A stretch of 64,000 nt of DNA. Origin: Marinobacter qingdaonensis (GTDB taxonomy: Bacteria; Pseudomonadota; Gammaproteobacteria; Pseudomonadales; Oleiphilaceae). Below are positions 7,115 to 40,935 of the stretch, in pieces (the stretch's first letter is position 1; each line of letters opens with the position of its first letter). The translations under genes were made by a program, and so were the position numbers. Under the pieces are notes generated by a model. It did not search any database. It was not told the DNA's origin and saw nothing but the letters and a program-made list of their open reading frames with translations. The stretch lies in contig NZ_JAYDCJ010000003.1 in NCBI RefSeq assembly GCF_034555935.1, forward strand, positions 1,116,001 through 1,180,000, in the 5' to 3' direction.

Positions 7115-8707
7115 ATGCCCTACGCACAAGACGTTGACCAGATTGCTTCCATCCTGAAGCAGCACCCGACCTGGAACGCTATCAACCCGAAGCACGCAGC
7201 TCGCATGCGCGCCCAGAACAAATTCAAGACCGGCCTGGACATCGCCAAGTACACCGCCAAGATCATGCGCGAGGACATGGCCAACTACGACAAGGACACG
7301 TCCCAGTACACCCAGTCCCTGGGTTGCTGGCACGGCTTCATCGGCCAGCAGAAGCTGCTGTCCATCAAGAAGCACTTCGGTTCCACCAAGCGTCGCTACC
7401 TGTACCTGTCCGGCTGGATGGTTGCCGCCCTGCGTTCCGAGTTCGGTCCGCTGCCTGACCAGTCCATGCACGAGAAGACTGCCGTTTCTGGCCTGATCGA
7501 AGAGCTGTACACCTTCCTGCGTCAGGCCGATGCCTGGGAACTGAACCACCTGTTCCGCGCCCTGGAAGAAGCCGAAAACGCCGGTGACAACGCCAAGGCC
7601 GACGAGCTGATCAAGCAGATCGACAACCACGAAACCCACGTTGTCCCGATCATCGCCGACATCGACGCTGGTTTCGGTAACGCCGAAGCAACTTACCTGC
7701 TGGCCAAGCAGATGATCGAAGCCGGTGCCTGCTGCATCCAGATCGAAAACCAGGTGTCTGACGAGAAGCAGTGTGGCCACCAGGACGGCAAGGTAACCGT
7801 TCCGCACGCTGACTTCCTGTCCAAGATCAACGCTGTTCGTCTGGCGTTCCTGGAGCTGGGTGTGGACGACGGTGTCATCGTTGCCCGTACCGACTCCCTG
7901 GGCGCTGGCCTGACCCAGAAGATCGCCGTAACTGAAGAGCCGGGCGACCTGGGTGACCAGTACAACAGCTTCATCGATGGCGAAGTGATCGAGAAGGCTG
8001 AAGACATCAACAACGGCGACGTTGTTATCAAGCAGAACGGCCAGCTGGTACGGCCGAAGCGTCTGGCATCTGGCCTGTTCCAGTTCAAGCCGGGCACTGG
8101 CGAAGACCGCGTTGTCCTCGACTGCATCACCAGCCTGCAGAACGGCGCTGACCTGCTGTGGATCGAAACCGAGAAGCCGCACGTTGGCCAGATCGCTGGC
8201 ATGGTTAACCGCATCCGTGAAGTGGTGCCCGATGCCAAGCTGGTTTACAACAACAGCCCGTCCTTCAACTGGACCCTGAACTTCCGTCAGCAGGTGTTCG
8301 ACGCCTGGCAGGAAGAAGGCAAGGACGTATCTGCCTACGACCGCGCCAAGCTGATGAGCGAAGAGTACGACAGCACCGAGCTGGGCCAGCTGGCCGACGA
8401 GTGGTGTCAGAACTTCCAGCGTGACGCGTCTCGCGAAGCGGGTATCTTCCACCACCTGATCACGCTGCCGACGTACCACACTGCGGCCCTGTCTACCGAC
8501 AACCTGGCCAAGGGCTACTTCGGTGACGAAGGCATGCTGGCCTACGTTGCGGGTGTACAGCGTAAAGAAATCCGTCAGGGTATCGCCACCGTTAAGCACC
8601 AGGACATGGCTGGTTCCAACATCGGCGACGACCACAAGGAGTTCTTCGCTGGTGACGCGGCCCTGAAGGCCGGTGGTAAAGACAACACCATGAACCAGTT
8701 CGGTTAA
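7115..8707 (+). CDS. aceA: Isocitrate lyase
   Basis: 530 aa, the long isocitrate lyase form of Pseudomonas and Marinobacter. It cleaves isocitrate to glyoxylate and succinate, the first step of the glyoxylate shunt, needed for growth on acetate, fatty acids and alkanes. The active-site cysteine is Cys220 in KQCGHQDGK, and DIDAGFGN carries metal-binding acids. A strong ribosome-binding site, AGAAAGGA (7099-7106), precedes the ATG. Codon use is noticeably restricted, as in highly expressed genes. The gene stands alone: an AT-rich leader lies upstream and a strong terminator downstream, and malate synthase is not in the window. Confidence 0.97.
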   Translation: MPYAQDVDQIASILKQHPTWNAINPKHAARMRAQNKFKTGLDIAKYTAKIMREDMANYDKDTSQYTQSLGCWHGFIGQQKLLSIKKHFGSTKRRYLYLSGWMVAALRSEFGPLPDQSMHEKTAVSGLIEELYTFLRQADAWELNHLFRALEEAENAGDNAKADELIKQIDNHETHVVPIIADIDAGFGNAEATYLLAKQMIEAGACCIQIENQVSDEKQCGHQDGKVTVPHADFLSKINAVRLAFLELGVDDGVIVARTDSLGAGLTQKIAVTEEPGDLGDQYNSFIDGEVIEKAEDINNGDVVIKQNGQLVRPKRLASGLFQFKPGTGEDRVVLDCITSLQNGADLLWIETEKPHVGQIAGMVNRIREVVPDAKLVYNNSPSFNWTLNFRQQVFDAWQEEGKDVSAYDRAKLMSEEYDSTELGQLADEWCQNFQRDASREAGIFHHLITLPTYHTAALSTDNLAKGYFGDEGMLAYVAGVQRKEIRQGIATVKHQDMAGSNIGDDHKEFFAGDAALKAGGKDNTMNQFG

Positions 8708-8726
8708 TCGACCGGTTCGGTTGTCG

Positions 8727-8786
8727 CTCCCGGGTTTGCCCGGGAGTCACGTCAAAGAAAAGCCCCGCCATTGGCGGGGCTTTTTT
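8727..8786 (+). terminator. Tandem hairpins and rho-independent terminator after aceA
   Basis: A first hairpin CTCCCGGG/CCCGGGAG lies at 8727-8746. A second stem, AGCCCCGCC/GGCGGGGCT (8761-8781), is followed by a T run and preceded by an A run, so it can terminate aceA and also the convergent metalloprotease gene. Confidence 0.9.
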
Positions 8787-8805
8787 GTGCCTGCGATTCA
8801 GGGAA

Positions 8806-9879
8806 TCAGTGCGCGGCCTCCCGGAACCGGCGGATGCGTTCCGAAGTCCCCGGGTGGCTGGAGAGCAGGTCCTCAAGTGCCGCCCAGCGGTCGTCGGAGT
8901 CGTCGCCCGTGTCGGCGGCGGAGCTTTCGGCCTGGGCGCTCAGGCGGGCCATGATGTTGGCGAAGTGGGCGGGGTCTATACCCCGCAGCTGCAGGGTTTC
9001 CAGTGCATAGTCATCGGCCTGACGCTCCATGTCCCGGGAGTAGGACAGGCTCATCAGCACCGCCGGCAGGACCACGGTGGTGTCCGAGAAGGCCGACAGA
9101 TCGCCGGTCATCATCACGATCAACCAGAAGGTCAGCGACGATTGCACCATGCCCTGCATGCCATGGCGGTGGGCCACGTGGCCCACCTCATGGGCCAGGA
9201 TGCTGAGCAGCTCATCATCGTGTTGGGCCAGCGCCACCAGATCGTCGGTGAAGATCAGGGTGCCGTCGGGCAAGGCCAGGGCATTGGCGCCGATGGCCGG
9301 TGAGTCCCGGAACTGAACGTTCAGGCGCTGGCCCGAGACCGGCTCCAGCAGCGGTGCAAAGTGGGCTCGCAGTGCCTGCTGGCGCTGCTCAGGCAGGGTC
9401 GTGGGTTCCAGCCAGGTGCTGTCCAGGGACGCCAGGGTGGTTGCCCCGACCTGCTCGGCGATGCTGTCCGGCAGCGCGTGAGCCACGGCCTTGGCGGTCC
9501 AGGGCACGCCGTAGACAAAGGCTCCGGCGGTCACGGCGAGGGTGACCACCGCGGCCACCAGGATCAGGCCCAGGTTATGCTCCAGTCGATGCAGCAGACG
9601 GCCCCAGCGGCCGCTGGCCGAGCGCCGCCCCAGGGCGTCGACTAGGTCGTTGTCGGTGGTCTCAAAGACACCGTCTTCCGGCAGGTGCAGGTATCGGGGG
9701 GTGTTGCCCACCCGAGGCGAGATCGTCAGCTCCTGCCAGGTCAGGGTCCGTCGCTGCGAGGCGGTGATCAACTCCAGCAGCGCTCCGGACGAACGCAGCA
9801 GGGCGTCCTCCCGGAGTGAGCTGCCGCCGGAGTAATACTGCCCTTCAATGACCAGCTCAGATGGCGGCGAATTCGACAT
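8806..9879 (-). CDS. M48-family membrane zinc metallopeptidase
   Basis: 357 aa with the ATG at 9879. The zinc motif HEVGH is at residues 230-234, and the third ligand is probably Glu285 in MERQADDYA, as in M48/HtpX/BepA-like peptidases. A membrane segment near residues 75-100 (LILVAAVVTLAVTAGAFVYG) anchors it, with the catalytic domain probably periplasmic. I chose MSNSPPSEL as the start because the longer frame runs back into the preceding DUF898 gene, with which this gene still overlaps by 23 bp. A DUF898 gene followed by an M48 gene is a recurrent pair in proteobacteria, suggesting a shared envelope role. The substrate is unknown. Confidence 0.88.
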   Translation of the reverse strand: MSNSPPSELVIEGQYYSGGSSLREDALLRSSGALLELITASQRRTLTWQELTISPRVGNTPRYLHLPEDGVFETTDNDLVDALGRRSASGRWGRLLHRLEHNLGLILVAAVVTLAVTAGAFVYGVPWTAKAVAHALPDSIAEQVGATTLASLDSTWLEPTTLPEQRQQALRAHFAPLLEPVSGQRLNVQFRDSPAIGANALALPDGTLIFTDDLVALAQHDDELLSILAHEVGHVAHRHGMQGMVQSSLTFWLIVMMTGDLSAFSDTTVVLPAVLMSLSYSRDMERQADDYALETLQLRGIDPAHFANIMARLSAQAESSAADTGDDSDDRWAALEDLLSSHPGTSERIRRFREAAH

Positions 9880-11176: not shown

Positions 11177-11430
11177 GGGTGCTCCTTTTTACGTTTCCTG
11201 GGTCATCGGGGCCGCAGCCCCGCCGATGCTTCCGTGCTGATACAGGACGGTAACTCCGCGACATTACCAGAGTTTCATGTCGGCGGTGTGAGCAATCTGG
11301 CATTTCATGTATCGGTTTGTGACGGGCGTGCCAGCGGTTTGCCTCTTGGTTTTTTTAACACCACTGGTGCCATCTAACTTTCTGAAATTGAAACTGAAAC
11401 CCTTTGGAGCTCCGTGCCGTCGGCATTTCC

Positions 11431-11450
11431 CTGTTTCAGCCCTGAAACAG
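11431..11450. promoter_or_regulatory. Perfect 20-bp dyad, probable activator site
   Basis: CTGTTTCAGCCCTGAAACAG is two 9-bp arms in perfect inverted repeat with a 2-bp spacer. Half-site-like CTGAAA copies occur about 50 bp upstream. Its position, about 90-105 bp upstream of the sigma-54-type promoter, is where enhancer-binding proteins commonly bind. No other copy was seen in the window, including in front of the linked regulator gene. Confidence 0.5.
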
Positions 11451-11536
11451 AACCCTCCGCTTGATGGGTCCTCTAAGTCGACCGGTTTTCAGAAAAATCA
11501 TTTAATAACATAAGTTTGCGATGGGTTGGTAAAAGC

Positions 11537-11552
11537 TGGCACGGGAATCGCT
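11537..11552 (+). promoter_or_regulatory. Sigma-54-type (-24/-12) promoter
   Basis: TGGCACGGGAATCGCT matches the RpoN consensus TGGCACG-N4-TTGC(A/T). The -24 element is perfect, and the -12 element has TCGC for TTGC, keeping the essential GC at correct spacing. Transcription would start near 11563, leaving a leader of about 80 nt before the ATG at 11645. Confidence 0.6.
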
Positions 11553-11644
11553 AAAGCCCGATTGGGTCAAAACCCTGGGGTGTCCGGCACAGCGCAGGTT
11601 GGGTGAGATCCAGTGTGACCAACAACATCAAAGGAATTGACGCT

Positions 11645-12334
11645 ATGAATACCAAGAAGAGCTTGCTAGCAATCGCCGTCGCCATGGGCCTGGGTTTCTC
11701 TGGTGCAACACTGGCTGATCCAACCCTGGGGGGAGATGGAGATCCGAACACCAACGCCAATGACGGTTCCGCCGCGCTGAACGATGTGGCCAACACCGAC
11801 ATCGCCGATTCCGGCAACACCGACGCCAGCACCAACAACACCGCCACCGACTCGTTCAAGATCAAGGACAGTGGCAATGACAACTCCGACAACAGCGTGG
11901 ATGTCACCGACTCGTTCAAGATCAAGGACAGCGGCAATGACAACTCGGACAACAGTGCCCACGTGACCGACTCGTTCAAGATCAAGGACAGCGGCAACGA
12001 CAACTCGGACAACAGCACCCACGTGACTGACGCGTTCAAGATCGCCAATAGCGGCAACACCGATGACAACTCCGACAATAGCACTGACCTGGATCTGTCA
12101 CTCAACGTGTTCCTGAACAATGCGGATCTGGATGGCACTGTCTCTGGCACTACCGTAACTTACGGCAGCGGCATTGGCGCCGACAACGACACCTACGCCA
12201 AGCACTACAACAAGATCTCGGATAATTCCGCGAACTTCACCGGTGTTGGTGCAATTGCCCAGAACAACGGTCATGGCTCGGTCAACCAGGCCAACGTGAG
12301 TGTGCAGTCCAATCTCTCAGCAGGCGGTAATTGA
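11645..12334 (+). CDS. Secreted repeat protein, candidate fibre subunit of a Fap-like system
   Basis: 229 aa, not a named family I recognise. The start is the ATG at 11645, preceded by AAAGGA, with a typical signal peptide (MNTKKSLLAIAVAMGLGFSG) cleaved after ATLA. Residues 68 to about 150 are four tandem 20-residue repeats (TDSFKIKDSGNDNSDNS plus a variable linker) encoded by an exact 60-bp period. The rest is rich in Asn, Asp, Gly and Ser and poor in charged basic residues. Near the C-terminus is AIAQNNGHGSVNQANVSVQ, a QN-x7-Q motif shared with the next secreted proteins. A FapD-like C39 peptidase and an outer-membrane barrel nearby suggest an amyloid-like surface fibre. That role is inferred. 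Confidence 0.7.
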   Translation: MNTKKSLLAIAVAMGLGFSGATLADPTLGGDGDPNTNANDGSAALNDVANTDIADSGNTDASTNNTATDSFKIKDSGNDNSDNSVDVTDSFKIKDSGNDNSDNSAHVTDSFKIKDSGNDNSDNSTHVTDAFKIANSGNTDDNSDNSTDLDLSLNVFLNNADLDGTVSGTTVTYGSGIGADNDTYAKHYNKISDNSANFTGVGAIAQNNGHGSVNQANVSVQSNLSAGGN

Positions 12335-12341
12335 GGAACAT

Positions 12342-12368
12342 GGGGTAGCGCCCTCTCGGGCGCACCCC
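12342..12368 (+). terminator. Intercistronic hairpin after the repeat-protein gene
   Basis: GCGCCC/GGGCGC with TCTC loop, extended by GGGG/CCCC across a small internal bulge. It has no T run, so it probably stabilises or partly attenuates the mRNA between the abundant subunit and the downstream genes. Confidence 0.5.
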
Positions 12369-12390
12369 GGTTACTGCCGGGAGGCATGTC

Positions 12391-12741
12391 ATGGCTGACA
12401 TAGTCAAAGGGATGCTGAACACGGGGAGTGCCCTGGTCCTGCTTGGACTGGCAACGGTGGTCTCGGCGGACGACTTTCTGGATCTGGCGCCCCTGAGCGC
12501 CGACCAGTTAGACAGCGCCAGCGGCCGGCAGGGGGTGCCCCTGCAGCTGCAGTTGAACGACACCGAGCAGAACGCCGCCGTCATCGGCAACGTGATTTCC
12601 GGGCCGTCCATGACCGGAGACAACATCATCTCCGACCAGGCGTTTGGAAACATGAGCGGGATTGCCACGGTGATCCAGAACACCGGCAATCAGGTCGTGA
12701 TTCAGGACAGCACTCAGGTCAACATTCACATCAATCATTAA
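12391..12741 (+). CDS. Small secreted protein with leader-like LSxxxL...GR motif (Fap-like cluster)
   Basis: 116 aa with a signal peptide ending near VVSA-26; GGGAGG stands 6 nt before the ATG. After the signal sequence, LSADQLDSASGR (35-46) resembles the leader recognised by C39 peptidases, with GR in place of GG. The C-terminus IQNTGNQVVIQDSTQVNIHI resembles curlin- or Fap-like amyloid repeats and aligns with the C-terminus of the 166-aa protein two genes on. A minor subunit, nucleator or adaptor of the fibre is the likely role. No named family is recognised. Confidence 0.65.
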   Translation: MADIVKGMLNTGSALVLLGLATVVSADDFLDLAPLSADQLDSASGRQGVPLQLQLNDTEQNAAVIGNVISGPSMTGDNIISDQAFGNMSGIATVIQNTGNQVVIQDSTQVNIHINH

Positions 12742-12754
12742 CCGGAGGTGGACC

Positions 12755-13447
12755 ATGGTGACACGGAGGCTTGGGGTACTTGCTGCCGGCGCCGCCATGC
12801 TGTGGTCCACTGCCTTCGCCGGTTCGGTTGCCATCCCCGGGCTGGGTGGCGGGATTCAGGTGGAAGTGGAGAGTTACCAGGCCAAACGGTTCAGCTCGGT
12901 GCTGCGCCAGCAATACGATTTCAGTTGTGGATCCGCAGCCCTGGCCTCGCTGTTGTCCTATCACTACGACCACCAGGTCACCGAGATGGAGGTGTTCAAC
13001 GGCATGTTTGCCCTGGCGGACCCGGACAAGGTGCGCAACGAGGGCTTCTCCATGCTGGACATGAAACGCTACCTGGAGTCCCAGGGCTATCGGGCGGATG
13101 GCTTTCGGTTGCCGCTGGAGGGCATTCGGGAACAGGTCCGGCTACCGGTGATCGCGCTGGTGAATCTTGAGGGGTTTCGGCACTTCGTCGTGATCAAGGG
13201 CATCAGTGAGCGTGAGGTGTACGTGGGCGATCCGGCGCGAGGCCTGAAGGTCTATTCGCACCGGCAATTCCAGGATTACTGGGACGGTACGGCCTTTGTC
13301 ATACGCAGCCACGTTGAGCAGGGGCGCAAGGCCTTCGAGATGGATGGCGACTGGGCGCAGTACGTGCGAGCGCCCCTGAACCGAAGCCCGGCTGGGCCTT
13401 CTCTGGGTCATACCCTGCCGACCTGGCCCACACCAAGGGAGTGGTAA
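12755..13447 (+). CDS. FapD-like C39-family cysteine peptidase, exported
   Basis: 230 aa. A signal peptide (to about AFA-22) places it in the periplasm, unlike C39 domains fused to ABC exporters. Catalytic residues are visible: Cys58 in DFSCGSAAL, His143 in FRHFVVIKG and Asp159 in VGDP. The block GFSMLDMKRYLES resembles FapD of the Pseudomonas functional-amyloid operon. GGAGG precedes the ATG. It sits between two secreted proteins whose N-termini carry double-glycine-like leaders, its likely substrates. The stop is 1 nt from the start of the next gene, so translation is coupled. Confidence 0.85.
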   Translation: MVTRRLGVLAAGAAMLWSTAFAGSVAIPGLGGGIQVEVESYQAKRFSSVLRQQYDFSCGSAALASLLSYHYDHQVTEMEVFNGMFALADPDKVRNEGFSMLDMKRYLESQGYRADGFRLPLEGIREQVRLPVIALVNLEGFRHFVVIKGISEREVYVGDPARGLKVYSHRQFQDYWDGTAFVIRSHVEQGRKAFEMDGDWAQYVRAPLNRSPAGPSLGHTLPTWPTPREW

Positions 13448-13448
13448 C

Positions 13449-13949
13449 ATGATGATCAAACCCGATGGCAGCGCCGCCCTGGCGCTGACCTTCATGGTCG
13501 GGCTGGCGGTGGCGCCGGCGTTGTCGGCGGCGGTGTTTCCGGAACCGGCCCTGAGCGACGAGGAACTGGCGTCACTGCGGGGTGGGTTCGTGCTCGATAA
13601 CTTCGAAATTCGCATCGGTCTGGAACAGGTGGTGTCCATTGACGGAGAGACGCTCGCGGTCAACCGCCTGACGATCCCGAACCTGAACCGGGCCACCAAC
13701 GGTGCCAATGTGCCGCACACGGTGGAAACGGTGGTCACCGGTGGGGCTGGCGGACGCGGTGGTCAGACCCTGGTGTCGTCGAAGTCCGACAATGGCGGCT
13801 GGCTGACCCTGATCCAGAACAGTATGAACGGGACGGCAATCCAGAACAGTCGGAAGCTGAACATCGAACTGAACAACTTCGGTGCCAGCTTCAACCGGTT
13901 GCCTGACAGCATGCGCGACCCAGTGCTGCAACTACTCAATCATCACTAG
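13449..13949 (+). CDS. Secreted protein with double-glycine-type leader, probable C39 substrate
   Basis: 166 aa. A hydrophobic N-terminus (signal peptide to about ALSA) is followed by LSDEELASLRGG (35-46), very close to the leader of C39-processed peptides and aligned position for position with LSADQLDSASGR of the 116-aa protein. A Gly-rich stretch (GGAGGRGG) follows, and near the C-terminus LIQNSMNGTAIQNSRKLNI matches the QN-x7-Q motif of the other secreted proteins. The start follows the peptidase stop by 1 nt, with GGGAG inside the peptidase gene end. No named family is recognised. Confidence 0.65.
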   Translation: MMIKPDGSAALALTFMVGLAVAPALSAAVFPEPALSDEELASLRGGFVLDNFEIRIGLEQVVSIDGETLAVNRLTIPNLNRATNGANVPHTVETVVTGGAGGRGGQTLVSSKSDNGGWLTLIQNSMNGTAIQNSRKLNIELNNFGASFNRLPDSMRDPVLQLLNHH

Positions 13950-13952
13950 CGG

Positions 13953-13976
13953 GGGGCGGCGCAGCAGCGCCGCCCC
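13953..13976. terminator. Hairpin between convergent Fap-like transcripts
   Basis: A perfect 10-bp GC stem GGGGCGGCGC/GCGCCGCCCC with AGCA loop lies 4 nt after the stop of the 166-aa gene and 8 nt before the stop of the barrel gene. It has no T run on either side. Confidence 0.55.
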
Positions 13977-13984
13977 ATTGGCAA

Positions 13985-15049
13985 CTAGAGCGTGATGGGC
14001 AGCTTCAGAGTCAATTCACTGCTGGGGGCGTTTTCGGTCACCCCAACGTTGACGGTCAGGTTCAGGGAGGTGTTGGCCGTCAAGCGTTGGGACAGGCCGA
14101 AAGCCAGGGAGCCGACCTGAATTCGGTCGAAGTTGGCGTCGGTAATGCCGCTGTCGGCCTGGAAAAAGGTTCTGCCGATGATCGAATGGTCGTAACTCAG
14201 ACTGAACGAGGTGCGCTCATTGAAAGCGAAGCCCATGCCGAAGCCGAATCGGAAAACGTCCCCTGGGTTGTATTTACCTCCGCTTCGGGTGCCTTCATCC
14301 TCCTCGGGAGTCCAGACGTAACTCACGTTACCAAACAGCACCGCTGGGTCAGAGGGGTAGATGAAGGAAAGGCCCGGCTCCAGTGACCAGAAACCGGAGC
14401 CGGTGGGCCGTTCCTCGAGTTCGACACCAATGGGGTTGCCCTCGCCGTCTTCTACTATTCGTTGATCGACATCGTAGGGGCCCTTCCCGGTGGGGGCCCT
14501 TACCCGAAATACGCCGATCACGTAGGGCCAGCCATCCAGACCGTCGTTCAGCTGATAACGGGCGGACAGCTCTATGTCGCCGAGGCCCTGACCCGAGGAC
14601 TCGTTCAGAGTATCGACTGGCGTTCCTTCAAAGGCTTCCCGTTCGCGGAGGTCTTCGTGAACACTTAACCAGGGAATCCTGATGTCCGCTTCCAGCCGGC
14701 TGGTAAAACCGTATTTGAAGGTCAATGCTCCGACAAAAATATCCCGCTGAATTTCCGAGATGTTGATCAGGCCCACCAGCAGCGCCGGAATGATGGTGTA
14801 GCCCTCAATGGCGACCCGGGTGGCGTTGCTGTGGGCATGGGAAATCGAGGGTTCGATGGTGAGCCGCCCCGGCCGGGTGACGATGCCCCGGTCGGTGGTA
14901 ATGGAGGCAATGTCGGTTACCTGCTCTTTCTTCGCTTCGGCGTCTGCGGCCGTGGTCTCGCTACTGCCGGAGGAGGGGGCTTGCGCCCAACCCAGAGCGG
15001 GTGCCAGGCAAACGCTGGCGAACAACGGAAAGAGTCCTGGTTTGGTCAT
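13985..15049 (-). CDS. Outer-membrane beta-barrel transporter, FapF-like
   Basis: 354 aa. The signal peptide ends at GWAQA. A short polar segment (SSGSSETTAADAEAKKEQV) precedes a barrel of alternating strands ending in TLKLPITL. The layout, short helical N-terminus plus 12-16-strand barrel, fits the MetA-pathway-type OMP group in which I believe FapF falls. I infer that it is the secretion pore for the small proteins of this cluster. Its ATG overlaps the regulator stop (ATGA), so the two are one operon on the minus strand, convergent with the subunit and peptidase genes. The longer frame upstream was rejected because it lies within the regulator. Confidence 0.72.
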   Translation of the reverse strand: MTKPGLFPLFASVCLAPALGWAQAPSSGSSETTAADAEAKKEQVTDIASITTDRGIVTRPGRLTIEPSISHAHSNATRVAIEGYTIIPALLVGLINISEIQRDIFVGALTFKYGFTSRLEADIRIPWLSVHEDLREREAFEGTPVDTLNESSGQGLGDIELSARYQLNDGLDGWPYVIGVFRVRAPTGKGPYDVDQRIVEDGEGNPIGVELEERPTGSGFWSLEPGLSFIYPSDPAVLFGNVSYVWTPEEDEGTRSGGKYNPGDVFRFGFGMGFAFNERTSFSLSYDHSIIGRTFFQADSGITDANFDRIQVGSLAFGLSQRLTANTSLNLTVNVGVTENAPSSELTLKLPITL

Positions 15050-16440
15050 GGCAGATCTCCCTTCTGATGCTGGCCCTGCCGGTCCTGTCCGGACTGTGGG
15101 CCGGTGTTGTACTTGTCCATAAGCCGATAGAACGACACGCGAGAAATCTTGAGGATTCGGGCCGCGGCCGAGATGTTGTGGTGGGCCAGAGCCAGGCTGC
15201 AGGACAGCGCCTGCCGGTCGGCCCGGGCCCGGAATTCCTCCAGGCTGAGGTTGGAGGTGGTGGCGTCGGTGGTCAGCCCGGCGGGGCTCAACCCCAGATC
15301 GTCCGGTTCGATGGCGTCCTGGTCGCACAGCAGCAGCCCCTGGCGCAGCCGGTTTTGCAGCTCCCGGAAATTGCCGGGCCAGGAATGATTGACCAGGCTC
15401 TTGATCGCCGCTTCGCTCAGGGGTTTCTGCTCGCCCCCGAGGGCCGAGGCCGCCAACAGGGTTTCGGCCAGGGCGGGAATGTCTTCCCGGCGTTCCTTCA
15501 GCGGCGGCAGTTTGACCTCCAGGCCGCCGAGCCGGTAGTAGACGTCGCTGCGGAACTGGCCTTCACTGATCAGGTCGGTCAGCGGCTGACTGGTGGTGGT
15601 GATGATGCGGCTGTCGATCCGAATGGGTTCGCTGCCGCCCAGTCGCTCGATTTGCCCTTCCTGCAGGAATCGGAGGATGGCCGACTGCTGCTCGAGATTG
15701 AGCTCATCGATGGAGGCCAATATGAGCGAGCCGCCGTTGGCCTGCTCCAGACGTCCCGGGTGGGCGCTGAGGGCATGGGTGAAGGCGCCCTTTTCGTAGC
15801 CGAACAGCTCGCTCTGGGTCAGCGAGTCGGGCAGGGCGGCGCAGTTGACCGTCACCAGGGGCCCGGCGGCCCGGGTCGAATGTTCGTGAATGAACCGGGC
15901 CGCGGCGTCCTTGCCGGTGCCACTCTCGCCGGTGATCAGCACCGGTTCGCCGGTCACCGAGAACCGCCGAAGCAGGCTGCGCACCTGGCGGATGGCGAGG
16001 GAATTGCCCTCCAGTACCAGGCTCTGGTAATCGTCCCGGGGCAGGCCGCCGCTGGATTCGCGAATGCTGGCCATGCCCCACAGGTGGCCCAGCACCGTAT
16101 CGATGCGTTCGTGGTTCACCGGCAGGGTGTGGAAGTCGGAGCAGTAGCGGGTGATCAACTGGGCCGTTCGGGTTCCGGTCACAGGCCGGTGCGGAACGAT
16201 GCCGACCCAGTAACTCAGGCTCAGCGCCTCCAGCCATTGTTCGAGCCAGGGCAGGTCGTCCGCCGCCGGCCGGGTGAGATCCAGAACGCCGACCTTGGCG
16301 GCCCTCGGGGGTGACAGAAGAATGGGCACCGGCTTTTCCGGGTTGTAGTCCAGCAGGTCCCAGCGGGAACCCAGCGCCGTGCGAACGTTGCTATAGCGGT
16401 GTGCCGCTGACAACCAGACGAGCGGTCTCTTTTCCATCAT
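15046..16440 (-). CDS. VpsR-like enhancer-binding-protein homologue with altered AAA+ motifs
   Basis: 464 aa, with the start at MMEKRPLVW after ACGGAGG. Residues 1-135 look like a receiver-like fold without an obvious phospho-acceptor. The AAA+ domain follows with an intact Walker A GESGTGKD (171-178). The sigma-54 contact loop reads GAFTHA (218-223) instead of GAFTGA, and Walker B reads LILASIDEL (239-247) where active members have LFLDEIGEL, so both catalytic acids are replaced. A Fis-type helix-turn-helix ends the protein (ISAAARILKISRVSFYRLM). VpsR of Vibrio is an atypical member that works with sigma-70 and c-di-GMP. It probably controls the adjacent Fap-like cluster. Confidence 0.85.
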   Translation of the reverse strand: MMEKRPLVWLSAAHRYSNVRTALGSRWDLLDYNPEKPVPILLSPPRAAKVGVLDLTRPAADDLPWLEQWLEALSLSYWVGIVPHRPVTGTRTAQLITRYCSDFHTLPVNHERIDTVLGHLWGMASIRESSGGLPRDDYQSLVLEGNSLAIRQVRSLLRRFSVTGEPVLITGESGTGKDAAARFIHEHSTRAAGPLVTVNCAALPDSLTQSELFGYEKGAFTHALSAHPGRLEQANGGSLILASIDELNLEQQSAILRFLQEGQIERLGGSEPIRIDSRIITTTSQPLTDLISEGQFRSDVYYRLGGLEVKLPPLKERREDIPALAETLLAASALGGEQKPLSEAAIKSLVNHSWPGNFRELQNRLRQGLLLCDQDAIEPDDLGLSPAGLTTDATTSNLSLEEFRARADRQALSCSLALAHHNISAAARILKISRVSFYRLMDKYNTGPQSGQDRQGQHQKGDLP

Positions 16441-40752: not shown

Positions 40753-40935
40753 AAGCTTCCCGGGCTGCCGTTATCGGATGTGGCCCTTGAACCCAAAGTT
40801 CAAGGTCGGTGGCCGCTGTGACATATTAGGCTTTCCCCTAGCGGGGACGTGCTCACAATGCCCTGAAGTAGCCACCTGGGTAATGCGCATCGGCTCGAGG
40901 ACGTATCCGAATATCCCGCACAGCCCAGGAAGTTG
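40753..40935 (-). ncRNA. ssrS: 6S RNA
   Basis: About 183 nt between zapA and the cyclo-ligase, the conserved 6S location. On the minus strand the ends pair (CTTCCTGGGCTG with CAGCCCGGGAAG). The 3' half carries ACCTTGAACTTTGGGTTCAAG, a strong hairpin also present in E. coli 6S RNA. A promoter with TATAAT (40941-40946) and TTGCAA upstream sits at the right place. 6S RNA binds the sigma-70 holoenzyme as a promoter mimic and tunes transcription in stationary phase. The exact ends are estimates. Confidence 0.9.

Follow-up and report, generated by a model that had tools for sequence, protein, structure and literature searches.

A conserved sister of the Fap secretion cluster in Marinobacter, with a predicted double-glycine leader in its FapE-like protein

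Introduction

The window analysed here, a stretch of 64,000 nucleotides from Marinobacter qingdaonensis (contig NZ_JAYDCJ010000003.1, positions 1,116,001 to 1,180,000), holds between positions 11645 and 16440 a cluster of six genes that code for an exported C39 cysteine peptidase, an outer-membrane barrel, three further exported proteins and a regulator. Read from its letters alone, the cluster had been taken for a distinct but Fap-like secretion system, and it raises two questions: whether it is the Fap system of Pseudomonas in diverged form, and on which protein its peptidase acts. Our answer, which we consider likely, is that it forms a two-step, two-signal secretion system that is a sister to Fap.

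Both questions have a background in work on Fap. FapD acts in the periplasm, and its active-site cysteine is required for secretion of FapC; FapB and FapC look intact, the N-terminus of FapE is absent from peptide maps, only FapE shows complete N-terminal processing, and the Fap proteins are without canonical C39 sites; the target of FapD is described as unclear, with FapE favoured as substrate and FapF named too (PMC5557850). A 2025 review goes no further than to name FapE and FapF as proteins that FapD presumably processes (PMC12822426). FapD and FapF have been treated as members of larger families (PMC3792158), and fapD-fapF pairs are reported from five further phyla (PMC6173800), so that the pairing of a C39 peptidase with a barrel outside Fap is already known.

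A FapD-like peptidase and a FapF-like pore

The peptidase (230 residues; 12755-13444, plus strand) matches the Pfam family Peptidase_C39 with an expectation value (E) of 5.3e-20 and the NCBIfam FapD model with 1e-46, at 159 bits against an equivalog cut-off of 330. Its residues Cys58, His143 and Asp159 are present in all 66 rows compared and Gln52 in 65 of them, and in an alignment with the C39 domains of peptidase-containing ATP-binding cassette (ABC) transporters (PCATs) the catalytic Cys, His and Asp match. The barrel (354 residues; 13988-15049, minus strand) is matched by Pfam to Phenol_MetA_deg (1.8e-06) and, over residues 48-352, to the FapF crystal sequence in the Protein Data Bank (PDB; E 1.4e-36); the NCBIfam FapF model covers it from profile position 109 to 417 of 420 (9e-44; 150 bits against an equivalog cut-off of 700). 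The long N-terminal coiled-coil region of FapF is missing in the window's barrel, in which 48 residues precede the start of the match at profile position 109, and short barrels of 356-359 residues are also found in at least three loci of the Fap clade (L039, L048 and L083).

A third member of the cluster, a protein of 166 residues (13449-13946, plus strand), is weakly matched by the NCBIfam FapE model (0.0059 over residues 12-57; 15.8 bits against a cut-off of 250), and a profile of its leader region ties it to FapE of other genomes; judged by these two matches, it is probably a short FapE relative. The NCBIfam scan returned no FapA match from any of the six cluster proteins, the inclusion of the FapA model in the library being unconfirmed. 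The grouping of the peptidase with FapD and of the barrel with FapF, for which the sequence-only reading had proposed profile searches, is borne out by NCBIfam, by the PDB and by the trees described below, and a role of the cluster in secretion is well supported by this family membership.

A leader directly after the Sec signal of the FapE-like protein

Four of the products, namely a repeat protein, a 116-residue protein, the peptidase and the 166-residue protein, each bear a likely Sec signal, called by eye and by a simple home-made rule, no dedicated predictor being used. In the 166-residue protein this signal is directly followed by the double-glycine leader LSDEELASLRGG (residues 35-46; 13551-13586, plus strand) and then by Phe47, and the leader is a predicted FapD site. 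Classical double-glycine leaders have the spacing LSxxELxxIxGG, and LSDEELASLRGG keeps this spacing.

FapF-like barrels were found in 61 of 390 genomes of an order sample (at 1e-10), in 33 of 369 of a class sample (at 1e-18) and in 36 of 398 of a phylum sample (at 1e-12), the three samples overlapping in genomes. Stretches were fetched around the strong barrel matches and around six weak ones of the order sample, and their neighbouring genes were listed. With repeat fetches removed (L011, L012 and L014-L022), 75 loci with C39 and barrel genes served for the trees and the leader counts. L053, L056 and L076, with no C39 gene in the stretch, stand outside the counts; L075, with a weak C39 match, is included in this set of 75 and left out of the set of 76 used for the pattern counts below; L050 (broken) and L005 (at a contig end) were dropped before the trees.

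A leader-region profile, whose seed allowed G, R or K after RG so that positions -3 to -1 are partly fixed, finds a match in 66 of the 75 loci, 38 of the leaders ending in RGG and 28 in RGR or RGK. Leader and C39 gene share a strand, and in 65 of the 66 loci the leader begins no more than 600 bp past the stop codon of the C39 gene (834 bp in L066). Across the 66 loci, position -7 is Leu or Met and position -12 is Leu, Val, Ile or Met throughout, position -8 is Glu in 48 and position +1 is Phe or Tyr in 63. In 53 of 85 loci (45 of 76 once duplicates are removed) an exported frame close to the C39 gene contains a strict double-glycine pattern, which occurs at none of 208 control places, and a looser pattern, which also catches chance matches inside signal peptides, gives 72 of 85 (64 of 76) against 16 of 208; the control places were taken from the same stretches, duplicates remain among the 208, and the candidates number 3.5 per place near C39 genes and 1.5 per control place, about 300 in each set.

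As a hold-out, the endings of 17 new loci, three of them from another class, were predicted beforehand from the barrel score, loci above 200 bits being expected to end in RGG and those below 165 bits in RGR or RGK. The last residue was as predicted in 16 of the 17 (Gly in eight of eight, and Arg or Lys in eight of eight, among the 16 with a C39 gene) and the whole triplet in 14, the misfits being L105 (HGK), L103 (TGK) and L098 (no leader); 15 leaders were found by the profile, that of L103 by reading. The 16-kb stretch of L098 carries a FapF-like barrel (7897-9093) and neither a C39 gene nor a leader.

On these counts the leader in the 166-residue protein is strongly supported as a real sequence feature. 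Its likeliest role, as far as sequence comparison can tell, is that of a site at which FapD cleaves or recognises FapE, and in the window's protein cleavage at the leader is likely. No description of a leader in a FapE-type protein appeared in print among the literature matches listed, a search outside which most subscription papers lie.

The repeat protein and the 116-residue protein

The first two genes of the cluster are open frames for a repeat protein of 229 residues (11645-12331, plus strand) and an exported protein of 116 residues (12391-12738, plus strand). The repeat protein carries DSFKI-x-DSGNDNSDNS repeats, its DNA repeat being 60 bp long and present in 3.3 copies, and it is the probable main fibre or matrix protein. 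A Pfam scan gave nothing above cut-off for these two proteins or for the 166-residue protein. Each of the two ends in one FapB-like C-terminal unit, at about 12197-12331 and about 12625-12738. The tail of the repeat protein compares with the FapB tail at an E of 7.4e-05, the tail of the 116-residue protein with the FapB tail at 5.4e-04, and the two tails with each other at 8.4e-05, none of 100 column shuffles scoring as high in any of the three cases, with the known pair of FapB and FapC, at 7.8e-07, as a benchmark; each value refers to one comparison by itself, and tail patterns had served to choose the sequences of the FapB set and some of those in the repeat-protein set. A match of the whole 116-residue protein to whole FapB (E 7.2e-06), which includes the signal peptide, was not used, and a likeness of the 116-residue protein's tail to the FapC tail is not claimed (E 0.0029, over 12 columns only). 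The earlier view that the subunits do not resemble the FapB and FapC repeats is correct only in part, two of them having one FapB-like unit each; the tail of the repeat protein gave no match to that of FapC.

The 116-residue protein also carries a leader-like motif, LSADQLDSASGR (12493-12528, plus strand), a possible processing or recognition site, in which SGRQG is kept in all 11 Marinobacter sequences. Among the neighbours listed, many relatives of this protein have an RG- or SG-containing motif at the same place, and it ends in RGG in L092, L096, L097 and L099. Small exported proteins with a WDE-containing stretch and a leader-like motif are likewise found near Fap genes in L038, L040, L073, L078 and L103.

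Cleavage site or docking segment

Besides cleavage, the reading that survives best takes the RG-containing motif for a conserved segment that serves docking or folding, with FapF or FapD as the partner, and has FapD cut elsewhere, for example in FapF. A role of FapF as a FapD target has been suggested in print (PMC12822426, PMC5557850, PMC5135000). Arg or Lys as the last residue is unusual for a C39 site, and conservation extends beyond the motif itself. The register, however, is that of a double-glycine leader, with a hydrophobic residue at -12, at -7 and in most cases at -4, usually Glu at -8, and Gly at -2 and, in the window's clade, at -1; the leader-bearing protein follows a C39 gene in 66 of 75 loci; and similar motifs occur in other small exported proteins near C39 genes. 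We consider a mere docking segment unlikely and keep cleavage at the leader as the preferred reading.

Several points nevertheless weigh against this preference and against the system as we describe it. The strict and looser patterns were written after most of the loci were known, and the leader profile was seeded, so that only the hold-out is independent. Neither RGR nor RGK is a canonical C39 site, so that in the Fap clade FapD may cut at another place or the motif may do no more than bind. The split between Gly and Arg or Lys is a single change on the tree and hence no independent evidence that protease and substrate are matched. Positions at which FapD differs between the clades were tried as an explanation of the change from Gly to Arg or Lys and rejected: position 115 is Asp in 36 of 38 RGG rows and Arg or Lys in 25 of 28 RGR/RGK rows, a charge change that does not complement it. 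In the FapE relatives of L041 and L042 the predicted site falls at residue 40, and peptides are reported to be missing up to about residue 70 (PMC5557850). Structure prediction, proposed earlier as a check, was run for the 166-residue and 116-residue proteins and gave poor models, with predicted local distance difference test (pLDDT) values of 48 and 50. A likeness between the tail of the repeat protein and that of FapC, finally, was rejected, with an E of 0.24 and ten of 100 shuffles scoring as high.

A sister clade beside Fap

Trees of FapF and FapD were built as quick trees with no bootstraps, rooted on Fil, with support from the Shimodaira-Hasegawa-like approximate likelihood ratio test (SH-aLRT), and in both the window's C39 peptidase and barrel fall outside the Fap clade. 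In the FapF tree the 38 RGG rows form one clade (support 99), which is that of the window and to which the Marinobacter family contributes 17 rows. A second clade (99), the Fap clade, unites the 28 RGR/RGK rows and contains all four loci whose FapE lies above the NCBI cut-off. The FapD tree gives the two clades a support of 98 and 93, respectively, with a warning of long branches meeting at nine other loci. Of the typed loci in the class sample, 14 belong to the RGG group and 16 to the RGR/RGK group. The nine loci without a profile-found leader are seven of Fil type together with L049 and L084, which join the 38-row clade with a support of 89 in the FapF tree. One genome, G102, carries a cluster of each kind at different places (L035 and L038), so that the two clades are not one system drifted apart in different hosts.

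These trees bear directly on the simpler reading that an ordinary Fap operon has merely diverged in Marinobacter. Relatives of FapD, FapE and FapF and FapB-like tails are all there, as such a reading would have it, but both trees split the two groups, G102 has both types, the scores given above lie far under the NCBI cut-offs and, with the proviso already stated, FapA went without a match; we regard simple divergence as improbable. The clade that the set forms in both trees upholds the initial description of the cluster as distinct but Fap-like, and supports, on sequence grounds, a distinct variant in a sister clade beside Fap, neither Fap itself nor Fil.

The cluster shares with Fap a periplasmic C39 peptidase, a FapF-type pore, a FapB-like terminal unit and a FapE-like protein whose leader stands in the corresponding position. 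It differs in the shortness of its FapE-like protein, in the lack of a FapA match, in a DNS-rich repeat protein whose tail is unlike that of FapC, and in a leader that ends in RGG where Fap has RGR or RGK. Fap is moreover a single operon from A to F, whereas the window has two opposing operons with the pore gene in the opposing one, although a split-off fapF is known in some Fap systems too (PMC3792158).

With Fil, a putative pilus system (FilB-FilC-FilD) on whose genes no paper was found, the cluster shares a C39 peptidase adjoining a FapF-like barrel and the presence of a leader-like neighbour, ending in TGQ in Fil; the window's proteins fit FapD and FapF far better, and Fil includes a FadL-type protein. 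The window genome also holds a Fil-type set of its own (L013, 8829-12354), which scores 276 bits with FilB and 335 with FilC against 113 and 58 for the window's proteins, and no FilD match was found among the six proteins of the cluster. In the six weak loci of the order sample the C39 protein matches FilB best in every case, and the two barrels tested match FilC.

PCAT exporters have in common with the cluster the catalytic Cys, His and Asp of C39 and the double-glycine leader; they differ in that the window's peptidase is exported, adjoins no ABC transporter and has substrates that carry a Sec signal first. Peptide or bacteriocin-like export, with C39 and a double-glycine leader as in microcins and small proteins released for other purposes, has the bacteriocin type of the leader in its favour and is very improbable in view of the absence of an ABC transporter among the six genes and two neighbours scanned, of substrates with likely Sec signals and at least 116 residues, two of them with FapB-like ends, and of a pore of the FapF type.

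Regulation

The barrel and regulator genes overlap by four bases (ATGA) and form an operon opposing the other four genes, an arrangement read from the letters at the outset and confirmed from the strands. The regulator (464 residues; 15049-16440, minus strand) is a VpsR-type activator by Pfam, with Sigma54_activat at 1.5e-55 and VpsR at 2.2e-07, the latter scoring 31.1 bits against a cut-off of 23.7. Among seven regulators outside Marinobacter, the VpsR domain is over the cut-off in L030, L041, L045 and L073, under it in L038 and not found in L035 and L083. What had been called a dedicated regulator is present as a gene, but regulators of its type are not peculiar to this cluster: activators with a VpsR domain are also found near the Fap clusters of L041 and L045. 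By analogy with BerB (PMC5552954), the regulator is perhaps linked to cyclic di-GMP (c-di-GMP).

The window's regulator has an altered Walker B motif and GAFTHA instead of GAFTGA. All 18 regulators of the Marinobacter family carry changes both at the Asp-Glu of Walker B and at the second glycine of GAFTGA, whereas Walker B is intact in all 39 other regulator rows and GAFTGA or GSFTGA is present in 35 of them; among these 39 there may be rows for regulators that do not belong to the cluster. With both motifs altered, the regulator may not drive sigma-54 in the usual way. The altered motifs stand in the same family in which a -24/-12-like site yet persists, with a changed -12 part.

In the window this site, a sigma-54-type promoter-like match of the form TGGCAC-N5-TCGC (11537-11551, plus strand), lies 93 bp before the repeat gene and scores 13.5 of 14.5. 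Of the 13 Marinobacter-genus loci tested, 12 have a site scoring at least 12.5 at 93-101 bp upstream of the repeat gene (L028 has none); by set, a site precedes the repeat gene in all ten loci of the first set and, at 12.5 or more, in ten of 13 further loci (L028, L058 and L059 have none). The -12 part is TCGC or TGGC in the first ten loci, not TTGC. As a sequence match, the site is a putative promoter. No such site was found before the window's barrel-regulator operon, where the best score was reached by 117 of 200 shuffles; in relatives, five of eight loci tested score 12.5 or 13.5 before the regulator, which is weaker support.

Proposed mechanism

In the system as we picture it, Sec would carry all products but the regulator across the inner membrane. 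Once in the periplasm, the FapD-like peptidase would recognise the leader of the FapE-like protein, and perhaps also that of the 116-residue protein, and cut after RGG to yield a mature FapE-like protein starting with Phe. The matured protein would start or anchor the next step, in which the repeat protein is exported by way of the FapF-like pore, the FapB-like C-terminal units would assist fibre assembly outside the cell, and the VpsR-type regulator would couple expression to biofilm signals, c-di-GMP perhaps among them. The product may be a fibre or an amyloid.

We lean, by a little, towards a wider view in which Fap, the window's clade, Fil and a fourth C39-barrel group (L049, L084) would be branches of one pathway marked by a pair of N-terminal signals, first a Sec signal and then a double-glycine-type leader. 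A C39 peptidase of the FapD family would cut this leader while the protein is in the periplasm, and the protein would then be exported by way of a pore of the FapF family. The target still missing for FapD would be the FapE leader, its last residue being Gly in one sister clade and Arg or Lys in the other. Leads for the remaining branches come from motifs spotted after the fact. In all six Fil-type loci fetched from other genomes, a neighbouring protein bears a leader-like motif that ends in TGQ, while no TGQ-leader protein was found in the 19-kb stretch around the Fil set of the window genome itself. In L049 and L084, neighbouring exported proteins carry motifs that end in TAG, WAG or YAG; two of these motifs sit in proteins 601 and 605 residues long.

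Conservation of the cluster

All six genes are confirmed as open frames at the coordinates first noted for them. A scan with six short stretches of the C39 protein against one genome per species (84,980 species), which reaches close relatives only, gave ten loci, all of them in Marinobacter. The genes for the 116-residue protein, the C39 peptidase, the 166-residue protein, the barrel and the regulator follow in the same order in all ten, and the repeat gene is present in nine, the exception being L005, which begins near a contig end; the small proteins thus keep their place in the relatives' neighbourhoods, where their absence would have told against the sequence-only reading. The barrel, counted by itself at an E of 1e-60 or better, is found in 74 of 124 Marinobacter genomes, with an internal stop in G019 and G1101 and a much weaker match in G1160.

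Single loci show the cluster in other forms. In L050, from genome G019, the copy is decayed, with the stop inside the barrel. L023 (2988-8370) has a tandem doubling of the repeat, 116-residue, C39 and 166-residue genes, with equal profile scores for the latter three. Elsewhere in the window, a 6S RNA gene lies at 40753-40934 on the minus strand.

Conclusions

In the parts consulted of the literature compared, which includes PMC6173800, PMC12822426, PMC10638192 and PMC5135000, no description of the sister clade's substrates or leader was found. The cluster of the window is a real, conserved sister of Fap, and with it a sister family is added to the Fap-type secretion systems. The textbook form of the leader, kept in the sister clade, reveals the corresponding place in FapE and offers a prediction at the level of single residues.

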